The notes beneath the pieces are model-generated. The model saw nothing but the letters and a program-made list of their open reading frames with translations. It was not told the origin of the DNA and searched no databases. A DNA stretch of 42,798 bases, taken from Conexivisphaerales archaeon. Its GTDB lineage: Archaea > Thermoproteota > Nitrososphaeria > Conexivisphaerales > UBA164. The translations under genes were made by a program, and so were the position numbers. The stretch lies in NCBI GenBank assembly GCA_030756715.1, contig JAVBJD010000006.1:1-42798 (forward strand). The letters are read 5' to 3'. This document shows positions 18,266 through 22,382 of this stretch, piece after piece. Position 1 is the stretch's first letter. The number at the start of each line of letters is the position of its first letter.

Positions 18266-19522
18266 TTAACTTTTTTGTGGTTCTATGTATTCCTGTCCAT
18301 TCATATAGCTAACTAGCGGTTTGGGTATTTTGATCCTTCCATCTGGCATGTAATTGTTCTCCATAATAGCTATGAGAGCCCTTTCTGTTGCAACTAACGT
18401 AGAATTTAATGTATGTACGTAGACGCTTTCGTTACCTTTTTTATACCTTATCTTTGCCCTTATCGATTGCCATTCAAGACAGTTAGAACAGGAAACGGCT
18501 TCCCTATATTTATTCTGCCCCGGTAACCATACTTCGAGATCATATTTTTTCGCAGCTGGCGCTCCAAGTTCTCCTGAACAAACATTGACAACCCGGTAGG
18601 GGATGCCTAAGCTTTGAAAGAATTCTTCTGCGTTTTTGATCAATTCTTCATGGTATTTCCAAGAATCTTCTGGCCTGCTGTATATGAACTGTTCAACTTT
18701 TTCAAATATGTGCACCCTAAATATTCCTTTAGTATCTCTACCGTGGGCTCCTGCTTCCCTTCTAAAGCAAGGAGAGATCCCTATGTATTTTAGCGGTAAA
18801 CTTTTTTCGTCGAGTATTTCATCATAATGATAACCCAGTATAGCGTGTTCAGATGTTGTTAGCAAATAAAGGTCTTCATTTTCGACTTTATAAATGGCTT
18901 CTTCGAAAGCAGAAAGGTCAACTGCACTCTCTAAAATAGCTCTGCGAAGCATATAAGGAGGTTGTAGAAGCGTGTACCCCCTTTTCATTCCAAAATCAAG
19001 ACCATAAGAAATAAGAGCATAATTTAGCCTTGCCAAGTCCCTTTTTAGATAATAAAACCTTGCGCCGCTTGTCTTTGCAGCTCTTTCTACATCTATAAGG
19101 TCTAGCTTTGATCCTATTTCTATGTGATCTGGTCCAACTTTGCCAGCTTCCCCCCACGTTCTCACGACCTGATTGTAAGATTCATCTGTACCCTCGGGCA
19201 CTGATGGATCTACAAAATTAGGCATGCTTAGCTGTAGTTGATTTATTTCGCTTTCTATTTTAGACAATTCTTTTTCAGCAGCTTTTATTTTGTCATCAAG
19301 CGTTTGGAGCTTTTCTTTGTCTATTTCTAGTGATCCGGACTTTGATTTCCTTGCAATATCTTCTTCTATTTGGTTTTTTTCATGTCTAAGATTGTTAAGC
19401 TCTGCAATCAGCTTCCTTCTTTTTTCATCGAGGTCTAGTAATCTATCTAAAGGAAAGTCAGAGTGTCTTTTTTTGAGCGATTCTCTATATTCTTCTAATC
19501 TGTCCTTTATTAATCTCAGCAA
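18266..19522 (-). CDS. serS: Seryl-tRNA synthetase
   Basis: N-terminal coiled-coil arm; class II motifs PCFRREAGAHGRDTKGIFRVHIFEKVEQF; LNSTLVATERALIAIMEN. Confidence 0.97.
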   Translation of the reverse strand: MLRLIKDRLEEYRESLKKRHSDFPLDRLLDLDEKRRKLIAELNNLRHEKNQIEEDIARKSKSGSLEIDKEKLQTLDDKIKAAEKELSKIESEINQLQLSMPNFVDPSVPEGTDESYNQVVRTWGEAGKVGPDHIEIGSKLDLIDVERAAKTSGARFYYLKRDLARLNYALISYGLDFGMKRGYTLLQPPYMLRRAILESAVDLSAFEEAIYKVENEDLYLLTTSEHAILGYHYDEILDEKSLPLKYIGISPCFRREAGAHGRDTKGIFRVHIFEKVEQFIYSRPEDSWKYHEELIKNAEEFFQSLGIPYRVVNVCSGELGAPAAKKYDLEVWLPGQNKYREAVSCSNCLEWQSIRAKIRYKKGNESVYVHTLNSTLVATERALIAIMENNYMPDGRIKIPKPLVSYMNGQEYIEPQKS

Positions 19523-19767
19523 CCTTTAACACCTCTTTCTACTGTTTTTGCAAGTTCTAAAATTTCGTCGAGCGTATTGAGCATAGACATAAGGCTTCCC
19601 TTATCGCTTTCGCTTACAATTTTTAGCTTGCCGTTTTCATATTTGATTTCCATCTTGACACCTTTCGGAAAATTTATGTTATCTGGCTCTAACGCTTTCT
19701 TAAGGCTAAGTAAATATTGTTCTGAATCCGCTAAATTTATTTCCACTTTTATCATCTCTATCAACAA
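19516..19767 (-). CDS. pcc1: KEOPS complex subunit Pcc1-like
   Basis: 83-aa small alpha/beta protein with Pcc1 pattern (ALEPDN...KGSLMSMLNTLDEILELAK); overlaps serS. Confidence 0.75.
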   Translation of the reverse strand: MLIEMIKVEINLADSEQYLLSLKKALEPDNINFPKGVKMEIKYENGKLKIVSESDKGSLMSMLNTLDEILELAKTVERGVKGC

Positions 19768-19883: not shown

Positions 19884-19892
19884 GTCTAAACA
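19884..19892 (+). repeat. Target site duplication, left copy (GTCTAAACA)
   Basis: Identical 9-mer directly abuts the other IS end at 20890-20898. Confidence 0.88.
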
Positions 19893-20889
19893 GAGACCAT
19901 CCAGTAATCGGCAAAACTTGATCGTTCATTAGCGCGGGAAGGCACGTTGTTTGTCTGCACAATTGGTTTGATGCCGTTATGCTAGCAGTTTTTTGATCTA
20001 TTAAGCCCTAAAATTAGCCTTTTGGTCACATTTTTGTAAAAATAAAGCACAGGATAAGCTAAGCAAGCTCTGCGCTTTACAACTTTATGTCTTTAAAAGA
20101 ACAGCTCAGTCCACTTCTTTGACTTATAGTATTCTATCATATCATGCTTCAAAGTTAGCACCATTATTCCTTTCAGCCTGCTTTCCCCTGCTTCCGTAAT
20201 AAAGCAATGAGCGCCTCTTCGTTATGTTTCCAAATGGCCTTTCACCAAGCTTCCTGTTCCCGTATTTTGCCTTATCAAAGCTATTGATGCATTCCCTCCT
20301 TATCGCAGATTTTGGAGGAACGTTCCTGGGCTTTACTATGAGCTGTATCCTGTGCTCTTTTGCTGTGAAATAATTTCCATCAACATCGTATTCAGCATCC
20401 ATCAAAAGAGAGGATCCCTCAGGAATAAGCTTTACAGCTCCATCTATCTTGTTGGTGTGCTCAGATACGAAGAGGATCGTGTTGGGAGGTATCCTTGTAA
20501 GGGCGAAGTACCCAGAGCAATCCTCTCGTGTGCCTTCCATACGGTCTCTTCCTTTTATTCCTCAGCAGAGGCCTTTCATGGTATGCTACATCGTTTATTA
20601 TCCTTGAGCTCTCTATCATTACAACCGTGTTGACGGCTTGATCAAAGTTGATGCTGAGTTTGCAGAGCGCTATATATTCAGAAGGTATCCTGTATTTAGG
20701 AAGGAAAGCAGTCATTGCCGGAGCCTGCCTGTCATCTAGAATAACCTTCAGAAGCCAAAATCCGTAAAGATTGGGTACCGGTTTTATATTGCTTTCATAA
20801 TATTCCATCTTGGGTAGCACTCAAAGAGCCATTATAGAGAACATCTATAAGGGCTCTTCTATTTTATTCAGGAATTACTGGATGATCTC
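19893..20889 (-). mobile_element. Complete-ended insertion sequence (~997 bp) with 16-bp TIRs and 9-bp target site duplication
   Basis: Left end GAGACCATCCAGTAAT (19893-19908); right end ATTACTGGATGATCTC (20874-20889), whose reverse complement GAGATCATCCAGTAAT matches 15/16; GTCTAAACA immediately outside both ends (19884-19892 and 20890-20898). Confidence 0.9.
20142..20820 (-). pseudogene. Degraded DDE-type IS transposase
   Basis: Two overlapping minus-strand ORFs in different frames (20461..20820 and 20142..20540). The second carries LLMDAEYDVDGNYFTA...KPRN...RRECINSFDKAKYGNRKLGERPFGNITKR, typical of a DDE transposase. Confidence 0.8.
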
Positions 20890-20898
20890 GTCTAAACA
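20890..20898 (+). repeat. Target site duplication, right copy (GTCTAAACA)
   Basis: Identical to 19884-19892. Confidence 0.88.
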
Positions 20899-21152: not shown

Positions 21153-22382
21153 ATGTACTTTTACAAAATTGTACCAGTTATTATTCTCATAATCGTTTAC
21201 TCGCTCATAATTAAAAGGCGTATACTGAATCATAACATAGAAATATGGGCAGCGATGGGGATAGGCGCTTTATTAATGCTAATTACAGGCTCAATTACGC
21301 CTTTGGACGCTTTATATTCAATTAACATACACGTTATTGCATATTTATTTGGTATGCTGATCATCGGCGCTGCGCTTTATGAAAGCGGTTTACTCGGTTA
21401 TTTATTTAAAAGCCTATTTATAAAAGAAAACAAATTCACCAGTATATTCTTTAAACTTTTTTTGCTTATAGGAATTGCTTCGTCAGTATTAATGAACGAT
21501 ACCTTAGCAGTTATCATGACACCATTAATGGTTGACCTAAGCAAAAGGTTAAAGATAGACGAAAAGTTTCTGTTGCTTCTTCTCGCATTTGGGGTGACGG
21601 TTGGCAGCGTGATGACTCCCATAGGAAACCCTCAAAACCTGATAATAGGGCTCCAGATGACAGATCCTTTTTATTATTTTGGAAAATACCTAGTGCTCCC
21701 GACTTTGATAAACCTCGTTCTGACTTTTTATCTATTAAAAGTGTTTTTTTATAAAAATGCTAATTTTGATGTAGAAATTAAGGACCTTGAATACAGTATA
21801 AAGGATAAAACGCTAGCTTCTTTATCTAAAGTCTCACTAGTTCTTTTGATAATTATGTCTCTTTTAAACGTATTACTTTACGTTTTGTTAAAGGTTACGT
21901 TTTCATTAGGCTTAATAGCCCTATTGTCTGCAGTACCTGTTTTGTTTACTAAGAATGTAAAAAAGGTGATTAAGAGGTTCGACTGGAAAACCATTGCTTT
22001 TTTCATCTTTATGTTCATAGTTATGCAGGGGGTTTTTAACTCAGGATTTTTCCAGAGCTTTATTTTGTCTTTTTTACAGACACCTTTTGAAATAATGTTC
22101 GCAAGCATAATATTGAGCCAGTTTCTTAGTAATGTTCCTTTTGTAGACCTCTTCATAAAATTTGTTTCGCACACCCCAGTGAACCTCGTTACGTTAGCTG
22201 CTGGAAGCACAATTGCAGGGAACTTTCTGTTGCTAGGCGCAGCTAGCAACATTATAATAATACAGACAGCAGAAGCTCAAGGGGGAAAGGGATTATCTTT
22301 TATGGATTTTGCTAAATACGGAACTATAATAACTATAATAAACGCGTTAGTTTATCTTTTGTTTATATATTTGTATTTGTAA
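21153..22382 (+). CDS. SLC13/ArsB-NhaD-type ion transporter
   Basis: About 11-12 TM segments; ASSVLMNDTLAVIMTPLMVDL and GSVMTPIGNPQNLIIGLQ motifs of the ArsB/NhaD superfamily. Confidence 0.88.
   Translation: MYFYKIVPVIILIIVYSLIIKRRILNHNIEIWAAMGIGALLMLITGSITPLDALYSINIHVIAYLFGMLIIGAALYESGLLGYLFKSLFIKENKFTSIFFKLFLLIGIASSVLMNDTLAVIMTPLMVDLSKRLKIDEKFLLLLLAFGVTVGSVMTPIGNPQNLIIGLQMTDPFYYFGKYLVLPTLINLVLTFYLLKVFFYKNANFDVEIKDLEYSIKDKTLASLSKVSLVLLIIMSLLNVLLYVLLKVTFSLGLIALLSAVPVLFTKNVKKVIKRFDWKTIAFFIFMFIVMQGVFNSGFFQSFILSFLQTPFEIMFASIILSQFLSNVPFVDLFIKFVSHTPVNLVTLAAGSTIAGNFLLLGAASNIIIIQTAEAQGGKGLSFMDFAKYGTIITIINALVYLLFIYLYL

Follow-up and report, generated by a model that had tools for sequence, protein, structure and literature searches.

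A probable internal-deletion derivative of an IS5-like insertion sequence, with a conserved leader hairpin, in an uncultivated archaeon

We asked whether a 1-kb segment of a Conexivisphaerales genome is a complete insertion sequence whose transposase has suffered a simple frameshift, as a first-pass annotation had proposed, or the remnant of a larger element. The segment lies in a window of 42,798 nt (the whole stretch of DNA analyzed), which is contig C50 of the 1.26-Mb genome G000, an assembly in 138 contigs. The insertion sequence spans 997 bp (19893–20889), a length and limits that agree with the annotation. Its terminal inverted repeats (TIRs) are GAGACCATCCAGTAAT at the transposase-distal end (19893–19908, plus strand) and GAGATCATCCAGTAAT at the transposase-proximal end (20874–20889, minus strand), complementary at 15 of 16 positions (94%), as had been claimed. 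Directly outside both TIRs lies an exact 9-bp target-site duplication (TSD), GTCTAAACA (9/9), with its left copy at 19884–19892 and its right copy at 20890–20898, both on the plus strand. The 9-mer occurs twice in the window, compared with 0.46 occurrences expected, and both are the TIR borders; the chance of an exact 9-mer at precisely both borders is about 4e-6 (4^-9, our own arithmetic). The TIRs, the TSD and the lost catalytic center described below bear out a genuine insertion sequence whose ends are intact and whose transposase is dead. The description of this element as complete at about 1 kb does not hold, as its full size in relatives is about 1.4–1.5 kb.

The insertion separates a divergent pcc1-like/serS pair (19516–19767 and 18266–19522, both on the minus strand) from a permease gene that begins at 21153 on the plus strand, the genes being named by eye. 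The small pcc1-like ORF, by name a KEOPS subunit, overlaps the serS start slightly, by a few bases, as it also does in relatives. The nearest named relatives of serS, at 89–91% identity, come from the metagenome-assembled genomes Thaumarchaeota archaeon UBA160, Nitrososphaerales archaeon KMA_Bin22 and Thaumarchaeota archaeon EvPrim.Bin21. KMA_Bin22 is also the sequence at the orthologous site of G001 (L038), a member of the same genus. There, the intergenic region does not contain the element, and its length is about 405 bp, compared with about 380 bp in the window after subtracting the element and one TSD copy. A congener therefore lacks the insertion, its site being too diverged from the window for a single copy of GTCTAAACA or the exact target to be recognizable. 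Alignments of the site with G002–G004 run into contig ends or are poor.

A 132-aa fragment from the window matches ORFs of 394 and 406 aa in G012, a single-contig genome of 1.59 Mb from another genus of the same order. When the intact relative P0001 is searched back against the window, it matches in three separate pieces on the minus strand, and the same is found with P0002. Residues 8–101 of P0001 correspond to 20518–20796, residues 243–360 to 20190–20558 and residues 359–391 to 20096–20194, while residues 102–242 have no match in the window. The N-terminal fragment (20518–20796) has not kept the relatives' ATG, which is replaced at the aligned position. The fragment that follows (20190–20540), identified by profile and protein matches, carries the second catalytic Asp and the Glu, and the C-terminus (20096–20194) lies in a third frame behind a second frameshift near 20190. 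That C-terminal sequence, HDMIEYYKSKKWTELFF, had been noticed as an out-of-frame fragment; it is present and out of frame, and its alignment identifies it as the genuine end of the protein. Between the first two fragments, alignment to the intact relatives places a putative deletion joint at 20518–20536 (minus strand), where ..GRHTRG runs into ..DCSGYFAL. Downstream of the transposase, a noncoding tail (19909–20095, minus strand) corresponds to a tail of about 230 bp in the intact relatives; its outer 133 bp, including the TIR, are 75% identical to a copy in G001.

The missing middle amounts to about 150 codons (P0001 residues ~101–252), or about 450–456 bp. Restoring ~456 bp to the window copy gives ~1450 bp, which falls inside the relatives' range of 1370–1521 bp. 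By eye, the catalytic residues of the intact relatives are D229, D294 and Y336-R339-E343 in P0001. The first Asp, D229 (FAGDNSA), whose catalytic role is read from motif and position, falls within the missing part; what survives is LLMDAEYD, with the second Asp, and YGNRKLGE, with the Glu of the Y-x2-R-x3-E motif. The window copy does not encode the complete D-D-E transposase of an autonomous element, and, judged by these alignments, its main transposase defect is an internal deletion rather than a frameshift. The first-pass annotation was right that two minus-strand frames overlap (20461–20540), but a simple +1 or -2 shift does not relate them when ~150 codons with the first Asp are missing in between. 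The TGA that it noted upstream is present, and should not be counted as damage, since in the intact relatives, too, a stop codon shortly precedes the ATG.

Two overlapping frames are what a working element with programmed ribosomal frameshifting would present, as in the IS1 and IS3 families. This reading is extremely improbable: the intact relatives encode their protein in a single frame, the window copy has lost its start codon and carries another frameshift, and we rejected this reading because the catalytic core with D229 is missing from between the frames. It is also improbable, to a lesser degree, that the middle was lost through collapse of the assembly and that the real copy in this metagenome-assembled genome is full length. 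The assembly is in 138 contigs, and contigs of G001 and G004 end inside or near family copies, a sign of repeats breaking assembly; however, the joint is clean, the assembly holds no full copies elsewhere with which this one could have been merged, and the start codon and the second frame are damaged independently.

We conclude, with a probability of about 85%, that the element is a non-autonomous internal-deletion derivative of a ~1.45-kb IS5-like DDE element, and that it entered between pcc1-serS and the permease gene by a 9-bp staggered cut, because it has intact TIRs and TSD, matches full-size relatives in three pieces and has smaller relatives with the same ends. It lacks a functional transposase, has kept its ends and has relatives of autonomous size in G012. 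A full copy of the family would have supplied transposase in trans, acting on the TIRs of the window copy and making the 9-bp staggered cut at the target, and the copy was probably already damaged when it moved. Mobilization of a damaged copy in trans by a full element's transposase is the usual route to miniature inverted-repeat transposable elements (MITEs). Judged from its coding remnant, the window copy is now incapable of moving itself, and it could move only if a complete relative provided the transposase, a possibility that the annotation had also raised. The helper copy is not seen because the G000 assembly, from which repeats may be missing, contains no full-length copy.

The order of events is a separate matter. 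An intact, autonomous element may have inserted first and acquired its deletion and frameshifts later in place, an account that differs from ours in the order of events only and that we consider possible, if somewhat unlikely. Neutral decay would be expected to leave several independent lesions, such as the deletion, start loss and second frameshift seen here, and the copies in G004 and G006 also contain stops. Yet the TSD is still 9/9 and the TIRs 15/16 despite heavy coding damage, and the existence of shorter derivatives in both G000 and G012 shows that damaged forms of the family get inserted, although sequences this short cannot settle the order. We lean towards damage before insertion, since the TSD is perfect although the gene next to it is badly damaged, and since these shorter derivatives were themselves inserted.

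The family occurs in full-size, internally deleted and miniature forms. The two full-size elements of G012 are 1489 and 1521 bp long, with uninterrupted transposase ORFs and a nearly identical TIR; no obvious TSD was seen around either. The annotation had proposed looking for intact copies with a shared TIR, and none was found in the G000 assembly itself. A search for the TIR across the genome, as had been suggested, found it elsewhere in G000 and in relatives, with unrelated flanks. A second derivative in G000 (C20, L105 1344–1704) is 361 bp long, its TIRs match the window TIR at 15/16 and 13/16 positions with a decayed right end, and its flanks TTCAACGCC and TTCAACATC form a TSD at 7/9. The miniature derivative in G012 (L102 642–804) is 163 bp long with an exact 9-bp TSD, TCGCGTCGG, and the broken copy in G006 is 1370 bp long with another, GGTAATGTG. 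Duplications of 9 bp thus recur in the window, G006 and G012. G012 contains further partial copies, and partial copies in G004 and G001 lie near contig ends. The contigs at L034 (start of C52 in G001) and L033 (end of C43 in G004) stop in a family copy or no more than a few hundred bases from one, suggesting that repeated copies there are breaking the assembly. We also observed an 1888-bp segment of G012 (L101 722–2609) whose inverted ends resemble the family's miniatures and enclose a long transporter-like ORF; no TSD was seen around it, and it is possibly a composite element.

The proposed assignment to an IS5/IS4-like DDE group holds as IS5-like. The best profiles for both the fragment in the window and its intact relatives are NCBIfam NF033579 (transpos_IS5_2) and NF033580 (transpos_IS5_3), which cover the C-terminal catalytic part with scores below the curated cut-offs (21.7 versus 140 bits and 27.8 versus 110 bits). 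Scores against Pfam DDE models are also below cut-off, and one PHROGs transposase family matched at E 9.4e-7. By motif and profile the element is thus placed in an IS5-like DDE group, and is not filed as an IS5 member because the profile matches fall far below cut-off. It shares with the IS5 family the D-D-E residues with Y-x2-R-x3-E and short TIRs, whereas the N-terminal ~250 residues are essentially unmatched and the TIR starts GAGACCATCC. A 9-bp TSD is also made by the IS903 group. The element resembles MITEs and internally deleted prokaryotic insertion sequences in keeping TIRs and TSD while the transposase core is gone, and in having smaller derivatives in the same or related genomes; it differs from MITEs in its length of 997 bp, its low copy number and the persistence of most of the coding remnant.

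A search with P0002 matched 4 of 400 genomes of the class, all within the archaeal order of the window. Apart from the window's own genome, the 398 genomes sampled from the phylum gave just two remote matches, fragments in G419 and G294, which yielded no family name. Among the genomes searched, close relatives by sequence were therefore found only in this order. No transposase relatives were found in the scan of named genomes or among viral contigs and plasmids, the PDB holds no sequence relative of the transposase, a single Rfam match far below the gathering score was taken as chance, and no paper describing the element was found among titles and abstracts. What these searches identify is a scarce group of insertion sequences, nearly confined to one order of Nitrososphaerota-type archaea, together with one candidate for RNA-level control of archaeal transposase expression. 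Otherwise, the element is an ordinary decayed insertion sequence, a common type of genetic parasite, of a rarely seen family in an uncultivated archaeon.

The candidate control is a hairpin in the leader, lying shortly inward of the transposase-proximal TIR (20823–20859, minus strand). It recurs at the matching ends in L030, L031, L032 and L033, between the TIR and the transposase start codon. We aligned the six copies having the transposase-proximal end by sequence alone, and RNAalifold returned a long hairpin shortly past the TIR, with compensatory changes in five pairs. Its covariation term is slightly unfavorable (+1.86) because eroded copies break pairs. The structure folded from one copy, G012a, pairs in 87.9% of cells across the alignment. 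Double-sided pair changes number 7, compared with 2.8 in shuffles (0 of 500 reach 7) and at most 3 when the structure is slid, a comparison drawn from six related sequences and the structure of one of them, computed without a tree. Of four sequences folded singly, two gave folds that do not stand out (z about -1.5).

In the relatives, an outer stem extends over the start codon, pairing GGGCCATGG with CCATGACCC in G012 and GCGCCATG with CATGGCGC in G006. These pairings, and the state of the hairpin in the two G000 copies, are consistent with a role in transposase expression, perhaps silencing read-through transcripts; the hairpin may instead act at the DNA level, through transposase binding or a promoter. 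Leader structures of the IS10/IS50 type block translation of read-through transcripts, and the present leader resembles them as an inverted repeat between element end and start codon that covers the start codon in relatives; it differs in belonging to an archaeal family and in being known here from sequence. We tentatively suggest a dual-use leader, where the outer stem would silence translation of transcripts from neighboring genes and a promoter within the hairpin would yield a translated short-leader or leaderless message. If true, this leader would do in archaea what the IS10/IS50 structures do in guarding against outside transcription, and would do so in an insertion-sequence group without a family assignment. 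The window copy has kept the core hairpin (-19.3 kcal/mol, z -3.2) and has lost the outer stem along with the start codon, and in the 361-bp derivative on C20, which has no coding part, the hairpin is eroded.
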